32,935 bases of DNA from an uncultured Verrucomicrobiota bacterium (GTDB lineage: Bacteria; Verrucomicrobiota; Verrucomicrobiia; Limisphaerales; UBA9464). Made by a program: the position numbers and the translations under genes. Below, in pieces: positions 12,946 to 27,337 of this stretch. Location of the stretch: NCBI GenBank assembly GCA_903858835.1, contig CAIOKD010000209.1, positions 1 to 32,935 of the forward strand, read 5' to 3'. Position 1 is the first letter of the stretch. Every line of letters begins with the position of its first letter. The notes under the pieces are model-generated. The model was not told the origin of the DNA. It saw only the letters and a list, made by a program, of their open reading frames with translations, and did not search any database.

Positions 12946-13111
12946 CCGTCTGGGGCTTGTGTATTGAGCACAAGGGCTCGGGTGGCCGACGGCAGCGGGC
13001 GGAGAATGCCTCCGGCGCGGACGATGGTCGGCTCGAGAACCCAATCCAAGGGGCGGGCGGGAGGGTCCGAACGATTCGGAACCGACCCCGATGCCCCAAG
13101 AAAGCGGCCCG

Positions 13112-13747
13112 ATGTCGGACATTTTCCCGAGGTGGACCAACAAGATACCGTTGATGGTCGGTGTGGCGGCGGCCGTGGTGCTGCCCACCGTCATCGCTGG
13201 GATCACCTACTACTTCACCCCGAAATACACCCGGGTGGGTTATCAGCCCAAGCAACCGGTGGCGTTCTCCCACGCCATCCATTCCGACCAGTTGGGCATC
13301 GACTGCCGCTACTGCCATAGCGATGTCGACAAGTCCTGGTTCTCGAATATCCCGTCCTCCGAGACCTGCATGCGTTGCCACTCCATCGTGGCCAAAGACT
13401 CCCCCAAGCTGAGCTTGGTGCGCGAGTCCTACTCCAGCGGCAAACCCATCCCCTGGGTGCAGATCCACAAGACGCCCGATTACGTCTATTTCAATCACTC
13501 CGTCCATGTGAATCGCGGCATCTCGTGCGTGAAATGCCACGGCGAGATCCAGAAGATGGACGAAGTGCACCATGCCAAGCCCCTGTCGATGGGCTTCTGC
13601 CTGGAGTGCCACCGGGAGCCCGAGAAGCATATCCGGCCCAATGATCTTGTGACCAAGCTCGACTGGAACGGTGAGTTCGACGGCAAGAAGGCCGTGCATG
13701 ACTGGAAGGTCCAACCCGGCCAGAGCTGTTCCACCTGCCACCGCTGA
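13112..13747 (+). CDS. actA: Alternative Complex III subunit ActA, pentaheme cytochrome c
   Basis: A 211-residue multiheme cytochrome. Five CXXCH heme sites are seen at residues 65-69, 86-90, 139-143, 163-167 and 206-210, the number expected for ActA. An N-terminal hydrophobic helix (about 12-35) anchors it with the hemes on the periplasmic side. It passes electrons from the quinol-oxidising part of Alternative Complex III to the acceptor. I prefer ATG 13112 (MSDIFPRWTNK) since ActA proteins begin with a similar 'IFPRWTN' block; ATG 13091, seven codons upstream in frame, is the alternative. The TGA stop shares a base with the actB ATG. First gene of the operon. Confidence 0.95.
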   Translation: MSDIFPRWTNKIPLMVGVAAAVVLPTVIAGITYYFTPKYTRVGYQPKQPVAFSHAIHSDQLGIDCRYCHSDVDKSWFSNIPSSETCMRCHSIVAKDSPKLSLVRESYSSGKPIPWVQIHKTPDYVYFNHSVHVNRGISCVKCHGEIQKMDEVHHAKPLSMGFCLECHREPEKHIRPNDLVTKLDWNGEFDGKKAVHDWKVQPGQSCSTCHR

Positions 13748-16700
13748 TGAAGACGATCCCCCCGATCTGCAACGAACCGGAGACCGGTCCGAAGTACTGG
13801 CGTTCCCTGGAGCAGTTGGCCGACCAGCCCGACTTCCGCCAGTGGATGGAGCGCGAGTTCCCGGCCGGCGCGAGCATCGCCCCCGATGGCGAGACCCGGC
13901 GCGACTGGATGAAGCTGATGTCCGCCAGCTTCCTATTGGCGGGCTTGGGCGGCATGGCCACCGGCTGTCGCCGCCCCGAGGAGGAACTGACTCCGTTTGC
14001 CAAGCAGCCCGAGGGCTACGTGCACGGCAAGGCGCAGCATTTCGCCACCTCGATGCCCGTGCGCGGCAGCGCCATACCCCTTACGGTCAAGTCGAGCGAC
14101 GGCCGTCCGACCAAGATCGAGGGCAATTCGCTCTTCCCGGGAAGCAATGGGGGCACCGACGCCTTGGCCCAGGCGGCCATCCTGAACCTCTACGATCCGG
14201 ACCGCGCTCATCGGCACACCCAGGGCGGCAACGATGTCAAGATCGAGGCCGTCCGTGATGCGCTCGCCGGAGTCGCCAAGGCGGCGTCGGCGAACCAGGG
14301 TGAAGGCCTCGCTTTCCTCGCGGAGCGCTCCTCCTCTCCGTCTCGTGCGCGGCTCCAGAAGTTGGTCGCCGAAAAGTATCCGAAGGCCACCTGGCACGCC
14401 TACGAGCCGGTCGACTTCTCCGGGGCCGATGCTGCGTATTCGCAGGCCTGCGGCACACCGGTCCACGCTGTGGTCCATCTTGAGAAGGCTCGCCGGATCC
14501 TGTCGCTCGATTGCGACTTCATCGGCGTCGAGCAGGATGCTCATCGCAGCATCCGCGGGTTCGCCCTCGGCCGGAAATCGGCCGATGACGGCATGAATCG
14601 GCTCTACGTGGTGGAGTCGATGATGTCCCTCACCGGCGGCAACGCCGACCATCGCCTGCGGGTCAAGCCCAGCGAGGTGGTCAAGGTCGCCGCCGCCGTC
14701 GCCGCTGAACTCGGGGTTTCCGGGGTCGCCTCGCCGTCCGGAGCCCACTCCGCCTGGGCGGCCGCCGTGGCCAAGGATTTGAAGGAAGCGGGCAAGGGTG
14801 CCGTGGTCGTGGCCGGGTATGCCCAGCCTCCCGCGGTCCATGCCCTTGCCGCCGCGATCAACGCGGCCCTCGGTGCGATCGGTTCGACTGTGACCTTGGT
14901 CCAGCCGACCGAGCCCGCCGCCTCCGGCATCCAAGAACTGACCGCCGCTCTCCAGGCGGGCAAGGTCTCCACCCTGGTCATTCTGGGCGGCAATCCGGCC
15001 TACAACGCGCCCGCCGATCTCCAGTTCGAGACCGTGGCCAAGAAGGCCGGCACGGTGATCCGCCTTGGATACTACGAGGACGAGACCGCGGCCGTGGCCA
15101 CCTGGCACCTGGCCGGAACCCACTTCCTTGAGTCCTGGGGCGACGCTCGCACGGCCGACGGTACGGTGGTCCCGGTGCAGCCGTTGGTCGAACCGCTCTT
15201 CGGCGGTCTGACCGAGCTCGAGGTGGTCGCCCGCATCCTGGGCGAAACCAAGGTGGCTCCCTACGATATCGTCCGCGAGACGCTGAAAGGTCTGGGCGTG
15301 GCCGACGAGGCCGCCTGGAAGCGCTTCCTGCACGACGGTTTCCTGGCCGACAGCGCCTCTCCGGCGGTTTCCGCGACGGTGTCCGCGTCGGCCGCCGCCA
15401 CCGCGCTGGCCGCCCACAAGCCGGTTTCCGGTGAGATCGAGGTGGTGCTCCACCGTGATGCCTCGGTCGATGACGGCCGCTTCTCCAACAACGGTTGGTT
15501 GCAGGAGATGCCCGATCCGATCACCAAGGTCACCTGGGACAACGTCGTCATGATGTCCCAGAAGACCGCCAAGTCGCTGGGCCTTCCCACCAAACGGTCG
15601 GCCAAGGTGCCTGATGAGTTGAGCCCCGCCGAGGCCGCCGATGCCAAGGACGGCCAGTACGACCAACCCGTGGTGAAGATCACCGTGGGTGGCCGTAGCG
15701 TCGAGGGACCGGTTTGGATCCAACCCGGATTGGCCGATGGCACCGTCGCCCTGGCCCTCGGCTACGGACGCCGGGTGGTCGGCCGCGTGGGTCGCGGAGT
15801 GGGCTTCAACGCCTACACCCTGTTCCAGTCGGCTTCCCGTCACCTTGCCGCCGGCAAGGTCGAAAAGGTCTTCCGCAAGCACCGGTTGGCGGTCACCCAG
15901 GAGCACGGCCTCATGGAGGGCCGGCCGGTCATCCGCGAGGCCCATCTCGAGCAGTTCAAGGCGCAGCCCGAGTTCGCCCGGAACATGGACCTCGAGGCGC
16001 ACCTGCCGCACTACGTGCCCTACAAGAACGGCACCGACGGCCGCAACGCCGAGAAGCGTCCGCAGAACATCTACGAGCACCCCTACGATCAGAACCCCGA
16101 GACGGCCTCGAAGGTCCATCAGTGGGGCATGGTCATCGATCTCCAGACTTGCGTCGGATGCTCGGCTTGCGTGGTCGCCTGTCAGAGCGAGAACAACATC
16201 CCCATCGTCGGCAAAGATCAGGTGGCCCGTGGCCGCGAGATGCTCTGGATGCGCATCGACCGCTACTACAGCCACAACCCGGATGCCGACGTGAACGCCG
16301 AACTGGCGGCCGAGGATCCCCAGATGGCCGTGCAGCCGATGTTCTGCCAGCACTGCGAGGCGGCCCCGTGCGAGAGCGTCTGCCCGGTCAACGCGACCGT
16401 CCACGACGAGGAGGGCATCAACGCGATGGCCTACAACCGCTGCATCGGCACGCGGTACTGCGCCAACAACTGCCCCTACAAGGTCCGCCGCTTCAACTGG
16501 TTCGACTTCAACAAGCGCGAGACCGACTACGGCGCCGCTCAGGACCAGCACCTGGTCAACACGGGCAACCTCTACAAGGGCCCGCTCGGCGTGAACCGCA
16601 ACAGCGAGCCGGAGTGGGAGATCATCAAGCTGGTCAAGAACCCCGACGTCTCGGTCCGCATGCGTGGCGTCATGGAGAAGTGCACCCTCTGCGTGCAGCG

Positions 16701-17097
16701 GATCCAGCAGGGAAAGATCGCCCAGAAGGTGAAGGCCGGGAACAGCGGTGACGTGGCCGTGCCTGACGGCGCTATCAAGACCGCCTGCCAGCAGGCCTGC
16801 CCCGCCGACTCGATCGTCTTCGGCAACCTGCTCGACGCCCACAGCGAAGTCGTCAAGGCCAAGGCCAGCCCGCGCAACTACTCGGTGCTCGGCTTCCTCG
16901 ACACCCGTCCGCGCGTCACCTACCTGGCGCGCATCCGCAACCCCAATCCGGCCGTTCTCGCCCTCGAGAAGCGCAAGACCCCGGACAGCCAGCGCGACTA
17001 CGAGCGCTTCCGTCACGAGACCCCATTCCAAGGACATTCACATGGTCACGATGCCTCGCATCCATCCGCTTCCCCGGCGGGGAAAGGAGCGGTCTAA
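13747..17097 (+). CDS. actB: Alternative Complex III subunit ActB, molybdopterin-oxidoreductase-like with Fe-S domain
   Basis: A 1116-residue fused subunit. Residues about 80-770 resemble the catalytic subunit of molybdopterin oxidoreductases; in known ActB this part lacks the cofactor. Residues about 795-1060 form a ferredoxin-like domain with '[11 protein letters not shown]' from Cys802, '[14 protein letters not shown]', '[14 protein letters not shown]', 'CTLC' and 'CQQACP', the Cys sets for several iron-sulfur clusters. A Tat-like '[19 protein letters not shown]' begins at residue 51, as in other ActB proteins, suggesting export to the periplasmic side. Start and stop overlap actA and actC by one base each. 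The electron path is quinol to Fe-S clusters to the heme subunits. Confidence 0.96.
17080..17088 (+). promoter_or_regulatory. Shine-Dalgarno of actC
   Basis: GGAAAGGAG lies inside the end of actB, 8 bases before the actC ATG at 17097. It fixes that start and indicates independent loading despite the TAATG overlap. Confidence 0.7.
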
Positions 17098-18527
17098 TGG
17101 CTAGCCCCGGAAAATCCGCCGCCGTCAAGGCGCCCGAACCGCCGGCCGAACTGGTCCGCGAGCCGTTGGTCCTCAACAACCGGCCGCTCGGCTGGATCAC
17201 CGACGCCATCGCTGGCGTCTGCGAGAAGCCGATGCCCGTCTGGTGGTGGCCCGCCTTCATCATCTCGGTGGGCGGCATGATCACCATGTTCTCTCTCATC
17301 GCCTATCTGGTCTCGACCGGCGTCGGCGTCTGGGGCCTGAATCAGCCCGCCGACTGGGCGTGGGACATCACCAACTTCGTGTTCTGGATCGGCATCGGCC
17401 ACGCAGGCACGCTGATCTCGGCCGTGCTCTTCCTGCTCCGCCAGAAATGGCGCACGTCGGTCAACCGGGCCGCCGAGGCCATGACCATTTTCGCCGTGGC
17501 TTGCGCGGGTATCTTCCCAGTGTTCCACACCGGCCGTGTCTGGTTCGCCCTGCTGCCCGGCTACCTGTTCCCGGCCCCGAACGCCAACGAGATCTGGCCG
17601 CAGTTCCGCTCGCCCCTGCTGTGGGACGTCTTCGCGGTGTCCACCTACGGCACGGTCTCGCTGCTCTTCTGGTACGTGGGCCTGATCCCCGACTTGGCCA
17701 CTCTCCGTGACCGGGCCAAGGGTTGGCTGCGACGGTTCTTCTACGGGCTGTTCTCGCTGGGCTGGACCGGCTCGAACCGCCACTGGAGCAACTACGAAAA
17801 GGCCTACTTGCTCTTGGCCGGCTTGAGCACCCCGCTGGTGTTGTCGGTGCACTCCATCGTGTCATTCGACTTCGCGGTGTCGGTGGTCCCTGGTTGGCAC
17901 ACCACCATCTTCCCGCCCTACTTCGTCGCGGGTGCCATTTTCTCCGGCTTCGGCATGGTGCTGACGCTGCTCATACCCCTGCGTTCGCTCTTCAAGCTGG
18001 AGGATGTCATCACGCTCCGCCACGTGGAGTTGATGTGCAAGGTGCTCCTCGCGACCGGTTCCATCGTCGGCTACGCCTACGGCATGGAGTTCTTCATCGC
18101 CTGGTACGGCGGTAGCCCCTACGAGCTCTACGCCTTCAAGAACCGCGCCTTCGGTCCCTACTGGTGGAGCTATTGGGCCATGATCTCCTGCAACGTGATC
18201 AGCCCGCACTTCTTCTGGTTCAAGAAGCTTCGTACCAGTGTGGTCTTCGTGTGGATCGTCTCGATCTTCGTGAACATCGGCATGTGGTTCGAGCGCTTCG
18301 TCATCATCGTGACCTCGCTGCACCGTGATTACCTGCCGTCCAGCTGGGGCTACTTCACGCCGAGCTGGGTCGATGTCATGACCTTCGTCGGCAGCTTCGG
18401 CCTCTTCATGACGCTGTTCCTGCTGTTCATCCGCTTCCTGCCGGTCATCGCGATCAGCGAGGTCAAGGGCGTGACGCCCCAGGCCGATCCCCACCATCCG
18501 CTCGGCGGCGCCAAGGGACACCACTAA
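17097..18527 (+). CDS. actC: Alternative Complex III subunit ActC, NrfD-like quinol-interacting membrane protein
   Basis: A 476-residue polytopic membrane protein of the NrfD/PsrC family with about ten transmembrane helices. Recognisable parts are the N-terminal '[18 protein letters not shown]', '[12 protein letters not shown]', the '[24 protein letters not shown]' helix region typical of ActC, and '[32 protein letters not shown]'. ActC is one of the two quinol-site candidates in the complex. It follows actB directly with a one-base overlap and a strong Shine-Dalgarno; actD starts 16 bases after its stop. Confidence 0.96.
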
Positions 18528-18543
18528 TCCATAGCCCCTGTCC

Positions 18544-19089
18544 ATGAGTTCCAATCCCTCCAAGCCGCACGGCCTCCTGGCCGAGTTCCACACGGCGGCG
18601 GACATCTTCGAGGCGGCGATCCGTTGCCGCGATGCCGGGTTCACGAAGTGGGACGTGCACACCCCCTTCCCGATCCATGGCATGGACGAGGCCATGGGCC
18701 TGAGGAAGTCGCCCGTGGGGTGGTTCACCTTCTGCGGCGGGTTCACCGGGTTCTTCACTGGCATGACCATGATCTGGTACATGAACAAGTTCGACTACCC
18801 CCTGGTGGTCGGCGGCAAGCCCCTCTTCACGCCGCTGTTCGCGTTCCCGGTCAGCTATGAGATGACCATCCTATTGAGCGCCTTCGGCACGCTCTTCGGC
18901 ATGTTCTTCCTGAACCGCCTTCCCAAGTTCCACAACCCGCTCTTCAAGAACGAGCGGTTCAAGAAATCGACCGACGACCGGTTCTTCATCTGCATCGAGT
19001 CGGCCGACCCGAAGTTCGGGCTCGAGGCCACCCGGGCCTTCCTGACCGAGAAATGCCATGCGGCCGTCGTCGAACTTGTGGAGGACTGA
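18544..19089 (+). CDS. actD: Alternative Complex III subunit ActD (DUF3341)
   Basis: A 181-residue membrane protein of the DUF3341 family. The N-terminal soluble part has 'AAIRCRDAGFTKWDVHTPFPIHGMDEAMG', the family signature. Two transmembrane helices follow (about 58-80 and 98-122), then a cytoplasmic tail with 'DDRFFICIES'. ActD anchors and stabilises the complex and carries no cofactor. Its stop directly abuts the actE start. Confidence 0.95.
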   Translation: MSSNPSKPHGLLAEFHTAADIFEAAIRCRDAGFTKWDVHTPFPIHGMDEAMGLRKSPVGWFTFCGGFTGFFTGMTMIWYMNKFDYPLVVGGKPLFTPLFAFPVSYEMTILLSAFGTLFGMFFLNRLPKFHNPLFKNERFKKSTDDRFFICIESADPKFGLEATRAFLTEKCHAAVVELVED

Positions 19090-19713
19090 ATGCGCACCTT
19101 CCTGAAATACTTCTTCACCGCCTACGTGCTGGCGGTCGCCCTGGTTGTGGGAATCGCCGGGTTCCGCGGCTCCAAGAGCACCAAGCCCCCGCTGGAGGTC
19201 TTCCCCGACATGGACCGCCAGCCCAAGCTGCGACCCCAGACCACCACCAAGTTCGCCGCGTGGGGCGACGGACAGACTTCCCGTCCGCATCCGGCGGGCA
19301 CGGTCTCGCGCGAATCCACCTGGGAGGACAACGCGTTCAATACCGGCCGCCAGGGTGGTGCCCTCGTCGAGGCGATGCCCATCGCGGTCAATGCCTCGGT
19401 CCTCAAACGGGGCCAGGAGCGCTATTCGATCTATTGCCAGCCCTGCCACGGCGTGCTGGGCGACGGCAAGGGCATCACCAGCAAGTACGGCATGGGCAAC
19501 ACGGCGAACCTGCACCAGGACCGCCTGATCAAGACCCAAGATGGCGACCTCTTCAACACCATCAGCAACGGCAAGAGCACGATGATGGGCTACGCCTCGG
19601 CCATCCCGGTCGCCGACCGGTGGGCCGTGGTGGCCTATGTCCGGGCGCTGCAACTGAGCCGGTTGGCCGCGGAGTCCGAGATTCCGGCGGCGGTCCTGCC
19701 CACCATCAAGTAA
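19090..19713 (+). CDS. actE: Alternative Complex III subunit ActE, monoheme cytochrome c
   Basis: A 207-residue monoheme cytochrome c. It has an N-terminal membrane helix or lipoprotein-like anchor (residues 5-25), a linker, one heme motif CQPCH at 116-120 followed by 'GVLGDGKG', and a likely axial Met in 'TMMGYASAI'. In Alternative Complex III, ActE is the second heme subunit on the periplasmic face. The ATG follows the actD TGA with no gap; actF begins 6 bases after the stop. Confidence 0.95.
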   Translation: MRTFLKYFFTAYVLAVALVVGIAGFRGSKSTKPPLEVFPDMDRQPKLRPQTTTKFAAWGDGQTSRPHPAGTVSRESTWEDNAFNTGRQGGALVEAMPIAVNASVLKRGQERYSIYCQPCHGVLGDGKGITSKYGMGNTANLHQDRLIKTQDGDLFNTISNGKSTMMGYASAIPVADRWAVVAYVRALQLSRLAAESEIPAAVLPTIK

Positions 19714-19719
19714 GCATCC

Positions 19720-21021
19720 ATGAACCCATTCTCACGACCGACCCAGTCTTGGAGGCCCGTGATCGCCGTCATGGCCATCGCCGGTCTGGCCCTCCTGCCC
19801 GCGATGGGGGCCGATGCCGGGCATGCGGCCCATGACACCGCCCATGCCGCCGCCGCACACGCCACGGCGAGCCACGGCTCTGATCATGGACACGCCGCCG
19901 TTTCCGCTTTCTCGCTCAAGCAGATCGCCCACAGCTACCTCACGGCCTACATGTTCTGCCTGAGCCTGTGCGTCGGCTCGCTGTTCCTCACCCTCGCCCA
20001 CCACCTGTTCGATGCCGGATGGTCGGCCTCCATCCGCCGGGTGACCGAGACCCTGGCCAGCCTGCTCTTCCCCTGGATGCTGATCCTGGCACTGCCGATC
20101 ATCGGCTTCGCTTGGACCGGCAACCTGCACGCCTGGTTCAAGATCGACCCGGCCACGGACCACGCGCTGGACGTCAAGAAGGTGCTTTTCAACCCGGCCG
20201 CCTTCACCGTGATGGTGCCTGTTCTCCTCACGCTGCTGGGCCTGATGGCCCGCAACATCCGCGCCTGGTCGATCGCCCAAGACAAGGACGGCGCCGCGCA
20301 CTGGACCACCAAGTCGCGCAAGCTGGCCGCGGGCGGCATCTTCTTCTTCGCCATCGGTACCACGCTGCTCTGCTTCCTGCTGATGAAGTCGCTGCAGCAC
20401 CAGTTCTTCAGCACGATGTACGGTGTCTACTACTTCGCCGGCAGCGTCTGGACGACCCTCATCACGCTGTACCTGCTCACGATGTGGCTCGCCCAGCCGG
20501 GTCGGCCTCTCGAGAAGGTCTACTTCAAACGCCAACAGCAGGATCTGGGCGTGCTGTTCTTCGCCTTCACGGTCTTCTACGCCTACATCCACTTCTCGCA
20601 GTATTTCCTCATCTGGAACGCGGCCATCCCCGAGGAGACCTTCTGGTACGTGCTGCGTGAGGTCGGGTCCTGGAAGTGGGTGGGCATGACCATCCTCTTC
20701 GGCCACTTCTTCGTGCCGTTCCTGTTGCTCCTCAACCAGGACATCAAGCGCAACCTCTCGGTGATGATCCCCGTGGGTGCGTGGGCCTGGCTGATGCACT
20801 ACATCGACATGACGTACAACATCATGCCGGTGATCCATCCCGACGGCCTCCACCTGACCCTGTGGGATCCGATCTTCTGGATCGGTCTCTCGGTCCTGCT
20901 CGCCCGGTTGTTCTGGTCCGAGTACCGCAAGAACCCGCCGTATCCCCAGAAGGATCCGCGGCTTCAGGAGGCCATCGTGCACCACGAGGTGCCCGCCCCC
21001 GGTGCATCCGCCGCCCACTGA
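19720..21021 (+). CDS. actF: Alternative Complex III subunit ActF, NrfD-like membrane protein
   Basis: A 433-residue NrfD-like polytopic protein, paralogous to ActC and the second membrane core subunit. A His/Ala-rich N-terminal region (about residues 33-60, 'HAAHDTAHAAAAHATASHGS') precedes the first conserved helix; the family pattern continues with 'YFKRQQQDLGVLFFAFTVFYAYIHFSQYFLIWNA' and 'HYIDMTYNIMP'. It is followed by an 18-base gap and a small membrane protein rather than directly by an oxidase gene. Confidence 0.95.
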   Translation: MNPFSRPTQSWRPVIAVMAIAGLALLPAMGADAGHAAHDTAHAAAAHATASHGSDHGHAAVSAFSLKQIAHSYLTAYMFCLSLCVGSLFLTLAHHLFDAGWSASIRRVTETLASLLFPWMLILALPIIGFAWTGNLHAWFKIDPATDHALDVKKVLFNPAAFTVMVPVLLTLLGLMARNIRAWSIAQDKDGAAHWTTKSRKLAAGGIFFFAIGTTLLCFLLMKSLQHQFFSTMYGVYYFAGSVWTTLITLYLLTMWLAQPGRPLEKVYFKRQQQDLGVLFFAFTVFYAYIHFSQYFLIWNAAIPEETFWYVLREVGSWKWVGMTILFGHFFVPFLLLLNQDIKRNLSVMIPVGAWAWLMHYIDMTYNIMPVIHPDGLHLTLWDPIFWIGLSVLLARLFWSEYRKNPPYPQKDPRLQEAIVHHEVPAPGASAAH

Positions 21022-21039
21022 GCCAAGCCCTCTCCCGAC

Positions 21040-21408
21040 ATGAGTTCCTCGAATTGCTGTTCCTCGACGTCGAAGACGACGCTCGCCTACCTGGCGGGCG
21101 GCCTGGGTTCCTTCCTCATCGTCGGTGCGCTCGCCTGGTTGGTGGTCCGCCAGCCGGTCGTGGCCGTCGATGCCGAACGCGTGTCCCAGCGGGTCAAGTT
21201 CAAGTCCGAGGTCGAGGCGGCCAGCGCCGCGAAGGTCTCCGGCTACGCCCTCGACACCGATGCCCTGGCCAAGGGCAACAAGGTCTATCACGTCCCCATC
21301 GCCCGCGCCTTGGAGATCGCCGCCGACGATTTCAAGGATCCCGCCGCCGGTCGCGCCAAGTTGATCCAGCGCCTGGAGGACAAGTCGAAGCAGCAGTCCT
21401 TCGAGTGA
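21040..21408 (+). CDS. Uncharacterised single-TM protein between ACIII and cbb3 oxidase genes
   Basis: A 122-residue protein I do not recognise with certainty. It has a short Ser/Cys N-terminus (MSSSNCCSS), one hydrophobic helix at about 16-37, and a polar, probably periplasmic, domain containing 'NKVYHVPIARALEI' (about 79-92). Small one-helix proteins with a similar 'V-x-I/V-P-I-x-R-A-x-E' stretch are familiar from oxidase clusters of other bacteria, by memory only. It is tightly embedded: 18 bases after actF and 4 bases before ccoS. It could be an accessory subunit or assembly factor of the ACIII-oxidase unit. The paired cysteines might bind metal or be an artefact. Confidence 0.8.
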   Translation: MSSSNCCSSTSKTTLAYLAGGLGSFLIVGALAWLVVRQPVVAVDAERVSQRVKFKSEVEAASAAKVSGYALDTDALAKGNKVYHVPIARALEIAADDFKDPAAGRAKLIQRLEDKSKQQSFE

Positions 21409-21412
21409 ACCC

Positions 21413-21601
21413 ATGTCGGTGATCGCATTCATCCTGTTGGGAAGCGTGGTGCTGCTGCCGGCGGCTGCCCTCTGGGCGCTCCGTTGGGCGGCGGCCGCGG
21501 GTCAGTTCCGATGCCCGGACAAGGCGGCCCTCCTGCCGTTCGACGAGTCCGAGCCCGTGGGCATTGAAACCGACTGCATCCTTGGAGGAAACCGTCGTTG
21601 A
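21413..21601 (+). CDS. ccoS: CcoS-like cbb3 oxidase assembly protein
   Basis: A 62-residue protein with one N-terminal transmembrane helix (residues 3-27) followed by 'AAAAGQFRCPDKAALLPFDES', which matches the CcoS pattern of a helix, then '..GQF.D....A...L.D'. CcoS is needed to insert cofactors into cbb3 oxidases. The location immediately upstream of ccoN, with a 4-base overlap, supports the call. The Cys after GQF is not a residue I expect in the family. Length fits (CcoS is about 50-70 residues). Confidence 0.8.
   Translation: MSVIAFILLGSVVLLPAAALWALRWAAAAGQFRCPDKAALLPFDESEPVGIETDCILGGNRR
21584..21590 (+). promoter_or_regulatory. Shine-Dalgarno deciding the ccoN start
   Basis: GGAGGAA ends 7 bases before the TTG at 21598 but 13 bases before the in-frame ATG at 21604. 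The spacing favours a TTG start for ccoN. Confidence 0.6.
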
Positions 21602-23091
21602 GCATGATCCATCAGTCCCAAACGCTGCGGGCCCTCCTTCCCGGTGACACCGGTGCCGAGGGCGGCCAAAAGACGGCGCTGGCGGAGATCGACGCCTCTT
21701 GCCGGGTGCCGGTCCTCTTCTTCTTCATCAGCGGTCTTGCCTGGCTTCTGGCCGGCACCGTGTTGGCGCTGGTCGCCAGCATCAAGCTCCACACCCCGGG
21801 GTTCCTGGCGGGCTGGGAGTGGCTCACCTTCTCGAACGTCCGCACCGCCCATCTCAACACCGTCATCTACGGCTTCGCCTCCCAGATCTCGGTGGGTGTC
21901 TCGGTCTGGCTGATGTGCCGGCTCTGTCGCATCCCGCTGCCGGCCCCGGGCTTGGTCACCGTGGCCAATCTCTTCTACAACCTCGGGGTCACGGTGGGCG
22001 TGGCCGGGATCCTGATCGGTGATTCCACGGCCATCGAGTGGCTGGAGATGCCCCGATATGCCACCCCGATCCTCTTCTTCAGCTACGCCCTGATCGCGGT
22101 TTGGACGATCATCACCTTCCGCCTCCGGGCCGAGCGTCACCTGTATGTCTCGCAGTGGTACCTCCTGGCGGCCGTGCTCTGGTTCCCATGGCTCTACGGC
22201 ACCGCTCAGGTCATGTTGCTCATCGAACCCGTGCGCGGGGTCGTGCAGGCGGCCGTCAACTGGTGGTTCGCGCACAACGTACTCGGCCTCTGGTTCACGC
22301 CGATCGGCCTCGCTTCGATCTACTACTTCATCCCCAAGGTGATCGGGCGTCCGATCCATAGCTACTATCTCAGCGTGTTGGGGTTCTGGTCGTTGGCCCT
22401 CTTCTACAACTGGAACGGCATGCACCACCTCGTGGGCGGCCCGCTGCCCGCCTGGATGATCACCATCAGCATCGTCGCCTCGGTCATGATGCTCATCCCC
22501 GTGATCACCGTGGCGATCAACCACCACTTCACCATGGTGGGCCATTTCGGAAAGATGCGGCACAGCCCGACGCTGCGATTCATCGTCTTCGGCGCGTTCT
22601 CCTACACGTTGGCGAGCCTCCAGGGAGTGGCGAGCGCCCTCCGCAGCGTCAGCGAGGTCACCCACTTCACCCACCATACCATCGCCCATGCGCACCTGGG
22701 CATGTATGCCTTCTTCACGATGGTGATGTTCGGGGCGATGTACTACATCCTGCCGCGCATCACCCAGCGGGAATGGCCGTCCAATGGGCTCATATCGCTG
22801 CACTTCTGGGGCGTGGCCCTCGGCATCCTCCTGTATGTCGTGCCGATGAGTGTCATGGGTTTCATCCAGGGCACGCGCCTGAATGATCCGACAATCCGCT
22901 TCCTCGATGTGGTGCAGTTCACCCTGCCTTGGCTCCAGTTGCGGACGCTGGCCGGGTTGCTCCTGGCCGCGGGCCATGCGGCCTTCGTGGTCAATGTCGG
23001 CTGGTTGCTGGTGCGGATGTTCGAGCCCTACCGCAAGCCGGTGGTCCGCATCCTGACCGGAGAGGCTGAATCCCTTGCCGCCGGAAAATAG
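21598..23091 (+). CDS. ccoN: cbb3-type cytochrome c oxidase catalytic subunit CcoN
   Basis: A 497-residue heme-copper oxidase subunit I with about 12 helices. Seen in it: His85 in 'RTAHLNTVIYGF' (low-spin heme b), His226 in 'WWFAHNVLG' (CuB), Tyr270 placed like the His-crosslinked Tyr of helix VII, His276/277 (CuB, 'GMHHL'), and His364/His366 in 'TIAHAH' (heme ligands). It reduces oxygen to water. Compared with the canonical motifs, the 'FEGPMM' Glu is Gln ('LQGVAS') and 'TDWTIGHVHSG' is 'THHTIAHAHLG', so it is a divergent CcoN. The TTG start is chosen from the Shine-Dalgarno spacing; ATG 21604 would remove two residues. It overlaps ccoS by 4 bases and is followed by ccoO after 2 bases. Confidence 0.95.
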   Translation: MSMIHQSQTLRALLPGDTGAEGGQKTALAEIDASCRVPVLFFFISGLAWLLAGTVLALVASIKLHTPGFLAGWEWLTFSNVRTAHLNTVIYGFASQISVGVSVWLMCRLCRIPLPAPGLVTVANLFYNLGVTVGVAGILIGDSTAIEWLEMPRYATPILFFSYALIAVWTIITFRLRAERHLYVSQWYLLAAVLWFPWLYGTAQVMLLIEPVRGVVQAAVNWWFAHNVLGLWFTPIGLASIYYFIPKVIGRPIHSYYLSVLGFWSLALFYNWNGMHHLVGGPLPAWMITISIVASVMMLIPVITVAINHHFTMVGHFGKMRHSPTLRFIVFGAFSYTLASLQGVASALRSVSEVTHFTHHTIAHAHLGMYAFFTMVMFGAMYYILPRITQREWPSNGLISLHFWGVALGILLYVVPMSVMGFIQGTRLNDPTIRFLDVVQFTLPWLQLRTLAGLLLAAGHAAFVVNVGWLLVRMFEPYRKPVVRILTGEAESLAAGK

Positions 23092-23093
23092 CC

Positions 23094-23732
23094 ATGAGTT
23101 ACGGACCGCTACTCTTCCTGGGAATCCTTCTCACCCTCGCCTCGAGCTGGGTGGGTCTGGTGCTGATGCCGCACCGTCAGATGGGCTCCCTGGGTCAGAA
23201 CACCGACACCAACACCGCGGCCATCTATCCGATGGCCCGGTCGGGTGAGGCCCAGCAGGGCGCCGAGCACTACCGCTCCCTGGGGTGCGTCTATTGTCAC
23301 ACCCAGCAGGTTCGGCCCGAGGGCTACGGCTCCGATCTGGAGCGTGGCTGGGGTCGCCGCCGTACGGTCAGCCGAGACTACATCCACGACAAGACCGTGA
23401 TGCTCGGCACCATGCGCACCGGTCCGGATCTCACCAATATCGGTGAGCGCCAGTCCGACACCGCCTGGCACTACCGCCATCTCTACAATCCCCAGATCAC
23501 CAGCCCGGGCAGCATCATGCCGCCCCACGCGTTCCTCTTCGAGACCCGTCCCATCGGGGCCTTTGGTCGCTCCACCAATGCGCTGGTTCTCGAGGGCGCC
23601 TTCGCTCCTCGCGCCGGCCACGAGGTGGTCCCGACCCGCCGGGCCGAGCAATTGGTCGCCTACCTGCGCAGTCTCAAGTCTTCGGGCGACCTGCCGGAGG
23701 CGCCGGTCAAGAAGGAGGAGGCCTCGAAATGA
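23094..23732 (+). CDS. ccoO: cbb3-type oxidase subunit CcoO, monoheme cytochrome c
   Basis: A 212-residue membrane-anchored monoheme cytochrome, subunit II of cbb3 oxidases. It has an N-terminal helix (residues 4-25), then 'QQGAEHYRSLGCVYCHTQQVRPE' with the heme motif CVYCH at 65-69, the family 'RTGPDLTNIGER' and axial Met in 'PGSIMPPH'. It feeds electrons to the CcoN heme b. The last codons overlap the next gene by 4 bases (ATGA), consistent with co-translation. Confidence 0.96.
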   Translation: MSYGPLLFLGILLTLASSWVGLVLMPHRQMGSLGQNTDTNTAAIYPMARSGEAQQGAEHYRSLGCVYCHTQQVRPEGYGSDLERGWGRRRTVSRDYIHDKTVMLGTMRTGPDLTNIGERQSDTAWHYRHLYNPQITSPGSIMPPHAFLFETRPIGAFGRSTNALVLEGAFAPRAGHEVVPTRRAEQLVAYLRSLKSSGDLPEAPVKKEEASK

Positions 23733-24559
23733 GCCATTCCAAGGACCCTTCCAAGGACACCTCCCGCGCGGCCTCCGGGCTTGATCGCGGCGAGCAGCAC
23801 GACGTCACCGAACTCCACGCCGCCGTCCTGCGCGAGAAGCCCGATCCGGTCGAGGGATTCGAGCCGGTGAACCTCTGGGTGGTGGCCGGCATCGCCGGTC
23901 TGCTGTTCTGGGGTGGAGCCTACCTCACCCAATACAGCGGTCGGTTCGAGGCGATGGAATTCTCCGAGATCCCCCACGGAAAACCCGCCCCGGTGGCGGC
24001 CGTGGCGGCCGATCCTCTGGCCGCCGTCAAGCGCGAGGGCATGCTCACCTACAATGCGGTGTGCGCGCTGTGCCACGGTGAAGACGGCGCCGGCAAGGCA
24101 GGGGTGGCTCCGCCGCTGGCGGGTTCTGACTGGGTGAACGCCGACGGACCGAATCGCTTGATGCGGATCGTCCGCCACGGGCTCAAGGGCACGGTGAAGG
24201 TCAACAAGGATGTCACCTGGAACCCGGCCAACGATCCCAGCATCGTGATGGGTTCCCAGTGGGAGGCCATCGGCGCCTCCAACGAGAAGTTGGCCGCGGT
24301 GCTGACCTACATCCGCTCCTCTTGGGGCAACACAGGCGCCCCGGTGACCGCCCCGATGGTGGCTGACGGCCTTGCACCAGTGAAAGAGCGCTCCGGCGAC
24401 GACAACTGGACCCAGGAAGAACTCCTCAAGGTGCCCGCCAGTGGCGCCGGCGCCCCGGCCGTGGCCGCGGGGCCTGCGACGCCCGAGCAGTTGAAGGCGC
24501 AGTTCGAGGCCCTGCCGGCCGACCAGCGCCAAGCCCTCCTGAAGGAGCTTTCAAAGTGA
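23729..24559 (+). CDS. ccoP: CcoP-like membrane-anchored monoheme cytochrome c
   Basis: A 276-residue cytochrome. An N-terminal polar part with 'DRGEQHDVTELHAAVLREKPDPVEGFEPVNLW' leads into one helix (about 49-67), then a cytochrome c domain with CALCH at 112-116 and a likely axial Met in 'IVMGSQWEAIG'. A charged, predicted coiled tail ('PEQLKAQFEALPADQRQALLKEL') ends the protein. Canonical CcoP carries two hemes; only one CXXCH is present here and the protein has no other cysteines. It occupies the ccoP position at the end of the operon and is probably the electron entry from ActA/ActE or a soluble cytochrome c. Confidence 0.85.
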   Translation: MSHSKDPSKDTSRAASGLDRGEQHDVTELHAAVLREKPDPVEGFEPVNLWVVAGIAGLLFWGGAYLTQYSGRFEAMEFSEIPHGKPAPVAAVAADPLAAVKREGMLTYNAVCALCHGEDGAGKAGVAPPLAGSDWVNADGPNRLMRIVRHGLKGTVKVNKDVTWNPANDPSIVMGSQWEAIGASNEKLAAVLTYIRSSWGNTGAPVTAPMVADGLAPVKERSGDDNWTQEELLKVPASGAGAPAVAAGPATPEQLKAQFEALPADQRQALLKELSK

Positions 24560-24655: not shown

Positions 24656-25009
24656 ATGAACAGGCGGAGGGACTTCGCGGTTCGGACGGTCCTCGGGATG
24701 ATCCTGGGGGGGGTCCTCGTCGGTTGCGAAACCTACGGCAAGGCCGACTGGAAGGCCCGTTTGGGCCACTACACCTGGGACCAGGCCATCGAGGAACTCG
24801 GTCCTCCCGAATCCGAGGCCCGCACCTCCGACGGTTCTCGGGTGGCCGATTGGATCCTTTCTCGGTCCCGCACCTATAGCACCGCCGTCCGCGGTCCGCT
24901 GTTCTGGAGTTGGAGCGGCCAGGACATCACCACGACGGCCGAGAATCACCTGCTGCTGACCTTCGATGCCCAAGGCCGACTGAAGGCCTGGAAACGGATC
25001 TACAAATGA
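24656..25009 (+). CDS. Small lipoprotein, SmpA/BamE-like outline
   Basis: A 117-residue predicted lipoprotein. A basic N-terminus (MNRRRD), a hydrophobic stretch and a lipobox LVGC put the acylated Cys at residue 24. The mature part contains 'YTWDQAIEELGPPESEARTSDG', then a tryptophan-containing beta pattern and 'LLLTFDAQGRLKAW', the outline of SmpA/BamE-type small lipoproteins (helix, 'lG.P', strand, 'F.d.G.l..w'). The exact family is uncertain. It overlaps the next gene by 4 bases (ATGA), so it is likely co-translated with the FtsB-like protein. Confidence 0.75.
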   Translation: MNRRRDFAVRTVLGMILGGVLVGCETYGKADWKARLGHYTWDQAIEELGPPESEARTSDGSRVADWILSRSRTYSTAVRGPLFWSWSGQDITTTAENHLLLTFDAQGRLKAWKRIYK

Positions 25010-25347
25010 AACGCCTCCGCAATGATTCTCCCTACGAGGTGGACCTCGGCTGGATGGGGGCCCTGAACCGGGCCATCCGCTGGTGCCTGTTCATCGGCAT
25101 CATCGGGTTCATCGTCGCCCAGTACCTACCTCTGATTCGCAAGAACCAAGCCCTCCGCGAGAATCTCGCCCGGTGGGAGGCTCAGCAGGCGCGGTTGACC
25201 GGCCAGTCCGACGACACGGCGGCCCGCCTGCAGAGCCTCCGCGAGGATCCGAGGGCCGTGGAGCGCGCCGCACGCGAGCGGCTCCAGTTGGCCCGCACCA
25301 ACGAGAGCGTCATCAACTTCGTGTCGCCGGATGCCCCGGCGCGTTGA
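25006..25347 (+). CDS. FtsB/DivIC-like septum formation protein
   Basis: A 113-residue bitopic protein: a short cytoplasmic N-terminus, one transmembrane helix (about residues 25-43, 'WCLFIGIIGFIVAQYLPLI'), then a heptad-rich coiled coil (about 45-80, 'NQALRENLARWEAQQARL') and the DivIC signature 'LREDPRAVERAARERLQLARTNESVINF' (R-x-P-x-x-x-E-x-x-A-R-x-x-L). In the divisome such proteins bridge FtsL and FtsQ. The start overlaps the preceding stop; the next gene begins 13 bases after its stop. Confidence 0.88.
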   Translation: MKRLRNDSPYEVDLGWMGALNRAIRWCLFIGIIGFIVAQYLPLIRKNQALRENLARWEAQQARLTGQSDDTAARLQSLREDPRAVERAARERLQLARTNESVINFVSPDAPAR

Positions 25348-25360
25348 AGATCGGCCCTGC

Positions 25361-27337
25361 ATGAAGCCAATGGCTCACTCCTATCGATCGGGATGGTTTG
25401 CACGGGTCGCGCGTGCGGTCGTTGCCGTCGCCGGCCTCTTCGCCACCCGTCTTGGCGCCGACTCCGTGCGTCCCGTGTATGATGCTCTCTGCGCGGCCCC
25501 CAAGTTGCAGTTGGAATTCGCTGCCGACGCCGACTCGGTCGGGGTGCTCGAGGGATCCGAGAGTCTGGAGGCGCCGGAGTGGCGGCCACTGCTCCAATTG
25601 GGCGCGACCTCCGGCCACCACGAGTGGATGGATCCCGAGAACCGGGCCCGGGCTCGGCGCTTCTACCGCCTCAGTCGTTCACCCCGGCCGCCGCTCCTGC
25701 CGCTGCCCAATTTCCGCCTGACCGATCACCTGGGGTTCTCCCATGAATTGTTCCGTGAGGGCGACGCCCGCGCCGTGGTGCTGGTCTTCACCGATGCCCC
25801 GTCGATGGCCTCGCACTGGCAGCAGTTGAAGCCGATCGTGGAATCCCCGGCCGGGGCAGGGGTGCAGTTCTGGATGATCGATCCCGTCGACGATCGGGGG
25901 GCCATGGCCGAGGCCGCTGCGAAGGCAGGGGTAGGCCTCCCGGTGCTCCACGACGCCGCCCGTCTCGTGACCCGGTCCTACGGGGTGTCGGTCGCGGGTG
26001 AAGCCGTGGCCCTCGAGGCCGAATCGCTCGCCCCGGTGTATCGCGGGGCCATCGAGGATGTCGTGTCGTCAGCAGTGGGTTCGTCGGTGCGCCAGCCCTA
26101 CCTGGCCGACGCCCTCGCCCGCTTCGCCTCGGGTGCCCGCCCGGCGGTGGAGTACGCCCGCCCGACGGGGTCTGCGTGGACACCCGATGACCCGGCCATC
26201 GCCTCCTACCGCGACGAGATCGCCCCGCTTCTGCAGGCCAAGTGCGTGACCTGCCACCGGCCGGGTGAGATCGGCTCCTGGGCCATCACCAATCATGCCA
26301 CGGTGCGGGCCAAGGCCGCGTCCATCCGTGCGAACGTTCTCGAGGGGCTCATGCCGCCGTGGCACGCCGACCCCGCTCACGGAAAATTCGAGAACGACTT
26401 TTCCCTGACCCCGCGGCAGCAGGCCCGCCTGGTGGCCTGGCTCGATGCTGGTGCGCCGCGCGACGAGGCTGGAGCCGATCCACTGGAGACGGTGCCGCCC
26501 GCCCCCGGTCCGTGGCCCATGGGCACTCCCGATGTGGTCCTTAAGATCGCGCCTCAGCCCATCCAGGCGACGGGCCAAATGCCCTACGCCTACCTGATCG
26601 TGACCAACACCCTGAAGACTAATGCCTGGCTTCGCGCGGCGGTCGTGCGACCCGGCAATCGCTCGGTGGTCCACCACTCGCTGATCTTCTACATCAAGGG
26701 CGGGTCCCTCCTCCAGATGCTCGCCGAGTTCCAGGCGGTGCAGGGCGGGTTGAACGGCTTCTACGCGGGCTACGTTCCCGGCATGGATCAGCGCCAGTAC
26801 CCGGCCGGGACCGGCAAATTCCTGCCCGCGGGTGGGGTGTTCGTCTTCCAGATGCACTACACTCCGAACGGCAAGGCGACGACCGACGCCACCGAGATGG
26901 GGCTGTACTTGAGCCCGACCCCGCCGCCCATGGAACTCAAGACCGGCGCGGCCAGCTCGACGGCCATCGACATCCCGGCCGGGGCCCGCAACCACCGCAT
27001 GGTGGCCGAGCGCGTCTTCGACACGGCCGTCGATGTGCACGAGTTCAGCCCGCACATGCATTTCCGGGGCGACTCCATGCGCTTCGAGGCGATCCTGCCG
27101 GATGGCTCCACGCAGGTGCTGCTCAACGTGCCCAAGTACGACTTCAACTGGCAGGCTCTCTATCGCTTGGCCCAACCGGTCCGCCTTCCGGCCGGAAGTC
27201 GCATCCGCATCTCGGGCGGGTTTGACAATTCCCGGTGGAATCCCTTCAACCCGGACGCCAAGTCCCGGGTCCGCTTCGGCGAGCAGACGGCCGATGAGAT
27301 GTTCATCGGTTATGTGAACTACTCCGAGGTGCGTTGA
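25361..27337 (+). CDS. Secreted fusion of redoxin-like fold, cytochrome c and PHM-type copper monooxygenase domain
   Basis: A 658-residue exported protein. Signal peptide about 1-33; a short module ending 'ARRFYRL' (about 50-104); a thioredoxin-like domain (about 115-225) with no Cys where a peroxidatic or CxxC Cys would be; a cytochrome c site CVTCH at 295-299 with probable Met331 ('GLMPPWH'); then a copper type II monooxygenase domain. In the last, His438/439 ('VHHS') and His499 ('QMHYT') match the CuH site, and His565/567 ('PHMH') with Met647 ('DEMFIGY') match the CuM site of peptidylglycine alpha-hydroxylating monooxygenase. Likely a periplasmic copper oxygenase of unknown substrate. ATG 25361 is chosen; ATG 25331 overlaps the previous gene. 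Confidence 0.88.
   Translation: MKPMAHSYRSGWFARVARAVVAVAGLFATRLGADSVRPVYDALCAAPKLQLEFAADADSVGVLEGSESLEAPEWRPLLQLGATSGHHEWMDPENRARARRFYRLSRSPRPPLLPLPNFRLTDHLGFSHELFREGDARAVVLVFTDAPSMASHWQQLKPIVESPAGAGVQFWMIDPVDDRGAMAEAAAKAGVGLPVLHDAARLVTRSYGVSVAGEAVALEAESLAPVYRGAIEDVVSSAVGSSVRQPYLADALARFASGARPAVEYARPTGSAWTPDDPAIASYRDEIAPLLQAKCVTCHRPGEIGSWAITNHATVRAKAASIRANVLEGLMPPWHADPAHGKFENDFSLTPRQQARLVAWLDAGAPRDEAGADPLETVPPAPGPWPMGTPDVVLKIAPQPIQATGQMPYAYLIVTNTLKTNAWLRAAVVRPGNRSVVHHSLIFYIKGGSLLQMLAEFQAVQGGLNGFYAGYVPGMDQRQYPAGTGKFLPAGGVFVFQMHYTPNGKATTDATEMGLYLSPTPPPMELKTGAASSTAIDIPAGARNHRMVAERVFDTAVDVHEFSPHMHFRGDSMRFEAILPDGSTQVLLNVPKYDFNWQALYRLAQPVRLPAGSRIRISGGFDNSRWNPFNPDAKSRVRFGEQTADEMFIGYVNYSEVR

Follow-up and report, generated by a model that had tools for sequence, protein, structure and literature searches.

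The gene discussed here lies in a window of 32,935 nucleotides (the whole stretch of DNA that was analysed) from an uncultured Verrucomicrobiota bacterium. It raises the question of why one polypeptide carries a redoxin-like fold, a c-type heme motif, and the ligands of a PHM-type copper monooxygenase, and from where such an enzyme would obtain its electrons. PHM and dopamine beta-hydroxylase are copper type II ascorbate-dependent monooxygenases, and in animals a PHM-type copper monooxygenase finishes peptide hormones. In the characterised PHM/DBM enzymes the CuM site activates O2 with supplied electrons. How electrons enter PHM-type enzymes and cross between their two coppers has long been debated.

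The open frame in the ORF list begins at ATG 25331 and spans 25331-27337 (+), 668 codons. We favour the start at 25361, since alignments with close relatives set in near residue 11 and ATG 25331 falls within the upstream DivIC-like gene. Residues are numbered in the 668-aa frame, so the start at 25361 is M11, and subtracting 10 gives the 658-aa numbering. The AlphaFold2 model of the 658-aa protein, built on a 56-sequence alignment, reached a mean pLDDT of 87.9 and a pTM of 0.85. A signal-like N-terminus is followed by a beta-rich domain (about residues 45-118), the thioredoxin-like domain, the heme domain, and the copper domain (Table 1). An earlier note, made from the sequence alone, had described a three-part fusion; the redoxin-like, heme, and copper parts do share one ORF, but the protein has four domains, and the beta-rich one had been missed. 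The putative signal peptide shows a basic N-region, a hydrophobic core, and an AxA-like end, and the first 30 residues were modelled with a pLDDT under 50. The protein is thus probably exported. An NCBIfam search of the protein gave no match. With the single sequence, Pfam detected AhpC-TSA (125-223, E 7e-5), Cytochrome_CBB3 (297-346, E 0.002), and Cu2_monoox_C (564-664, E 0.002, 18.2 against a cut-off of 23), all below the curated cut-offs for the whole protein.

Table 1. Coordinates of the gene, its domains and ligand residues, and the adjoining upstream gene.
Feature	Residues	Position in window (strand)	Basis
DivIC/FtsL-like gene		25009..25347 (+)	PF04977; 13 bp before target start
Whole gene	658 aa	25361..27337 (+)	ORF list, relatives' alignment, sequence around start
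Putative signal peptide (MKPMAHSYRSGWFARVARAVVAVAGLFATRLGA, followed by DS)	11-43	25361..25459 (+)	Read from sequence
N-terminal beta-rich domain, ends ...ARRFYRL		25463..25684 (+)	Model strands; close Verrucomicrobiota relatives
Thioredoxin/redoxin-like domain	121-262	25691..26116 (+)	Pfam AhpC-TSA, profile matches, Foldseek
Cytochrome c-like domain	285-384	26183..26482 (+)	Cytochrome_CBB3, profile match, helices
Heme c attachment motif CVTCH	305-309	26243..26257 (+)	Invariant in relatives
MPP, likely axial heme ligand	M341	26351..26359 (+)	Met 93/93, fixed spacing
PHM/DBM-type copper monooxygenase domain	394-668	26510..27334 (+)	Foldseek, profile, PF03712
PHM CuH ligand equivalents	H448-H449	26672..26677 (+)	Aligned to PHM HH; 93/93
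PHM CuH ligand equivalent, in FQMHY	H509	26855..26857 (+)	Aligned to PHM LQVHY; 93/93
PHM CuM ligand equivalents	H575-x-H577	27053..27061 (+)	Aligned to PHM HTH; 93/93
Proposed PHM CuM ligand equivalent (DEM motif)	M657	27299..27301 (+)	92/93; within PF03712 match

The copper domain has the PHM fold. In a Foldseek search of the whole model against the PDB, PHM was the best match (E 2.4e-12), with target TM-scores of 0.51-0.63 for PHM entries; human dopamine beta-hydroxylase was matched at E 2.6e-10, and all of the top 29 fold matches were PHM or dopamine beta-hydroxylase structures. The PHM tandem beta-sandwich fold is accompanied by the CuH ligands HH and H, and the profile alignment to PHM also covered HxH. 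We take H448/H449 to correspond to H107/H108 of PHM, H509 to H172, and H575/H577 to H242/H244. The HH, H, HxH set claimed in the earlier note is thereby confirmed. In the same alignment W-Q608 falls on PQ within the PQAFY stretch of PHM, and W607-Q608 is essentially invariant in the 93 aligned relatives. The heme residues and all six copper ligands are likewise essentially invariant there, and their conservation led us to reject chance motifs. The copper Met claimed along with the histidines is well conserved, but its direct alignment stops short, since the PHM profile ends before the CuM Met. M657, presumably the counterpart of PHM M314, was placed by conservation and by the Pfam match to Cu2_monoox_C, for which the isolated C-terminal part scored 23.1 against a cut-off of 23 bits. 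This family was matched by 35 of 36 relatives. A profile of the last 132 residues found no match among PDB sequences.

PHM and dopamine beta-hydroxylase thus share with this protein the fold, the aligned HH, H, and HxH, and, within the C-terminal domain, a Met that is conserved, but identity is only about 16% and the c-type heme is fused only here. Because the profile match to PHM is weak (E 8e-5), substrate and chemistry need not match those of PHM. PHM is disulfide-bonded; unlike it, 86 of 103 copper domains, the target included, contain no cysteine at all.

The heme domain is supported by its sequence as being of cytochrome c type. CVTCH provides the CxxCH motif and M341 the candidate distal axial ligand, and in the aligned relatives C305, C308, and M341 were each found in 93/93 and H309 in 92/93, with one X. 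The spacing from CxxCH to MPP was 36 residues (quartiles 36-36). Cytochrome_CBB3 was matched in 10 of 56 relatives, and the heme-domain profile found the alpha subunit of hydrazine synthase (E 4e-6). That likeness to the C-terminal cytochrome c domain of hydrazine synthase alpha (5c2v) covers the heme motif and the C-terminal helix region, although only short stretches match and the enzyme context is different. Modelled alone, the heme domain gave four helices and a pLDDT of 82.5. Foldseek of this model against the PDB returned nothing significant (cytochromes c only at E above 3, with cytochrome c551 at E 3.7), which does not decide the fold because the model contains no heme. The c-type heme claimed earlier therefore holds for the invariant CVTCH and M341 and for the sequence profiles, but the structure check gave no significant cytochrome match.

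The fusion is not peculiar to this genome. The arrangement recurs in eight relatives at about 79-87% identity, of which two are split between frames, and scanning genome contigs yielded at least 471 relatives among the 500 pattern matches listed. A one-off or assembly-artefact fusion was rejected on the basis of these eight relatives and the hundreds more. The earlier note's fusion is real, but it is how a large family is normally built and not a singular event. The family spans Verrucomicrobiota, Planctomycetota, alpha- and gammaproteobacteria, and other groups. The copper domain was found in 15 of 289 sampled genomes of the window's own phylum; a search of a plasmid collection gave no match. 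Two genomes reached via planctomycete loci held 8 and 12 matches, of which some lie in tandem, with one gene accounting for two of the twelve. The family is therefore widespread and conserved in bacteria, and it is apparently unstudied. The individual domains are already known; for the combined redoxin, heme, and PHM-type architecture we found no publication in the open-access literature searched, outside which most subscription journals lie.

We then compared 114 distinct copper-domain ORFs. Redoxin, heme, and copper domains occurred together in 108, and in six no redoxin domain was detected. Of these six, the L011 ORF is fragmented and that of L137 begins at the end of its sequence, so the genuine two-domain forms are L088, L089, L090, and L117. 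CxxCH was present just upstream of the copper domain in 112 of 114 ORFs, the exceptions being the fragmented L011 and L073, where an ambiguous base gives CVSCX. No copper domain without an upstream CxxCH was observed among the complete, readable ORFs of this set. The relatives and the search profile derive from fused proteins, which biases this co-retention figure upward, and heme-free copper domains may be under-sampled because of the way the profile was built. The distance from CxxCH to the copper-domain start had a median of 92 (quartiles 92-94). Judged from these sequences, heme and copper domains appear to be a near-obligate pair, almost never apart. Among close relatives dN/dS had its lowest values, about 0.05, in the heme and C-terminal copper parts and its highest, about 0.15, in the redoxin domain; these ratios are rough because dS is near or over 1. 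Purifying selection acts on all domains, most weakly on the redoxin.

The redoxin domain gave profile matches to 2ywi (E 6.5e-23) and ResA (about 1e-11), and Foldseek against the PDB matched it to the thioredoxin-like protein 2cvb (E 3e-9) and also to ResA. It shares fold and sequence profile with the ResA / TlpA / AhpC-TSA redoxins (2ywi, 2cvb, 3u5r, ResA), but the catalytic Cys of thiol-active members was lost in the window clade, and residues 121-262 contain no Cys. The earlier reading of a thioredoxin-like domain without its catalytic cysteine was therefore correct, and an active peroxiredoxin was rejected because this Cys is missing. Among the 108 redoxin-bearing relatives the catalytic column held Cys in 63 and no Cys in 45. 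The whole window clade of Verrucomicrobiota uniformly lacked it, the own-genome paralogue (L002, 37-38% identity) kept it, and a quick tree built from the heme and copper region showed about eight changes of state. With Cys missing in 45/108 and four relatives without a redoxin, this domain is expendable in the family. The planctomycete loci L028 (1022-6400) and L046 (5623-11200) carry three tandem copies each, the middle one without the redoxin Cys and its neighbours with it.

The N-terminal beta-rich domain (strands E35-40 to E101-108 in the 658-aa model numbering) had no Pfam match over 25463-25684. It was also found in L003-L007, L010, and L012, the nearest relatives down to 49-54% identity, and we take it to resemble a common Verrucomicrobiota domain. 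Among the relatives read, this domain with its RFYRL end was limited to the window's clade.

With moderate confidence, we propose that the protein is an ascorbate-independent PHM/DBM-type hydroxylase that uses electrons of periplasmic cytochrome c via its own heme, with a non-catalytic redoxin domain. The c-type heme (C305/C308/H309, axial M341) would accept electrons one at a time from the cytochrome c pool of the periplasm and pass them to the two-copper domain. One copper would be held as CuH by H448/H449/H509 and the other as CuM by H575/H577/M657. O2 activated at CuM would then hydroxylate a substrate that is probably small or hydrophobic. With its own electron donor, the enzyme would not need ascorbate. 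A search of the genome for an ascorbate-type cytochrome b561 found none, but the control searches had no hits either, so this absence carries no weight. The Cys-less redoxin domain may have no role beyond structure, docking, or presentation of the substrate. The built-in electron supply suggested in the earlier note is plausible, as it fits the near-obligate heme-copper pairing and the fixed spacing seen in the sequences. A paper on copper nitrite reductases (PMC13324648) offers a precedent, a tethered cytochrome c that acts as built-in donor. The well studied three-domain enzyme of Ralstonia pickettii (RpNiR) likewise joins a copper enzyme and a c-type heme donor in one chain, but its copper fold, chemistry, and ligands are unrelated, and its heme domain is C-terminal, whereas here the heme domain is N-terminal to the copper domain.

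Upstream of the gene, a compact respiratory operon (13091-24559, +) encodes alternative complex III and, directly after it, a COX1-type oxidase subunit, FixO-like cytochrome, and further cytochrome c; the complex III genes comprise a multiheme cytochrome, an Fe-S subunit, NrfD, ActD, and cytochrome c. With complex III, cytochromes c, and a heme-copper oxidase all encoded right before the target, a cytochrome c pool is present in this cell. The oxidase-side block (ActE/ActF onward) was kept in the relatives at about 79-87% identity, within the flanks fetched. In L010, at 54% identity, the respiratory genes are not neighbours, and of the upstream genes only the DivIC-like one and a small one before it are left. 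Outside the window clade, oxidase genes did not turn up among the shared neighbours. The linkage to the respiratory operon is at genus level only. The respiratory genes are thus evidence of a cytochrome c pool but no conserved partner of the target, because the linkage is gone at 54% identity. A contig titled as an Akkermansia muciniphila MAG (L005) has the window's genus-level synteny, and its title looks wrong. The DivIC-like gene kept its linkage to the target in relatives down to 54% identity (L010 5611-5928). This DivIC/FtsL-like gene and a small possible lipoprotein gene (together 24656-25347, +) adjoin the target even in L010 (5234-5928).

The gene's place right behind the complex III and oxidase genes would also suit electron flow in the opposite direction, as the domain pairing alone leaves this direction unfixed. 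The copper domain would then oxidise its substrate and release electrons through the heme to the respiratory chain, as a dehydrogenase or oxidase feeding cytochrome oxidase. We consider this unlikely. The full PHM ligand set is kept, the CuM Met included, O2 is activated by supplied electrons in the characterised PHM/DBM enzymes, and the link to the oxidase genes has gone at 54% identity.

A mainly regulatory or structural heme, the oxidation state of which gates substrate access while electrons come from elsewhere, has the same nitrite reductases as its precedent. According to PMC13324648, the tethered cytochrome of the three-domain CuNiR does more than deliver electrons: it alters both the Km and the potentials of the coppers, and it controls substrate entry. 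The tether described there is still a donor, however, and no alternative donor was identified for the present protein, so we judge this reading improbable. That the protein is a copper-handling or oxidase-assembly factor, loosely like Sco proteins and serving the adjacent oxidase, is suggested by a thioredoxin-like fold and copper ligands beside a heme-copper oxidase, but it is highly improbable, as the thioredoxin domain of the target has no cysteine, oxidase genes neither adjoin the gene in L010 nor recur as shared neighbours beyond the window clade, and about a dozen copies in one planctomycete genome suit an enzyme family better. Such a Sco-like factor was rejected as first choice for its missing thioredoxin Cys and for a linkage that fades beyond the genus-level clade.

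Beyond this one gene, the hydroxylase reading would define a widespread bacterial PHM-type class in which an obligatorily fused cytochrome c replaces ascorbate and ties copper-oxygen hydroxylation to the respiratory chain, with the redoxin fold reused as a non-catalytic part after losing its Cys repeatedly; we give this broader proposal an even chance. If it is true, bacteria gain a class of respiratory-chain-fed copper hydroxylases without a described member in the literature searched, and copies of it reach about a dozen in one genome of the bacteria that bear these copper hydroxylases. In a natural PHM-type enzyme whose own chain carries a donor visible by spectroscopy, electron delivery could be timed directly.

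An MMPL/RND transporter gene was found nearby in 21 gammaproteobacterial loci, including L029 (1135-3447, -), which hints at a hydrophobic substrate or product. By eye, EF-hand-like DxNxDG repeats were seen in two relatives, C-terminal in L002, the paralogue from the same genome, and N-terminal in L083.
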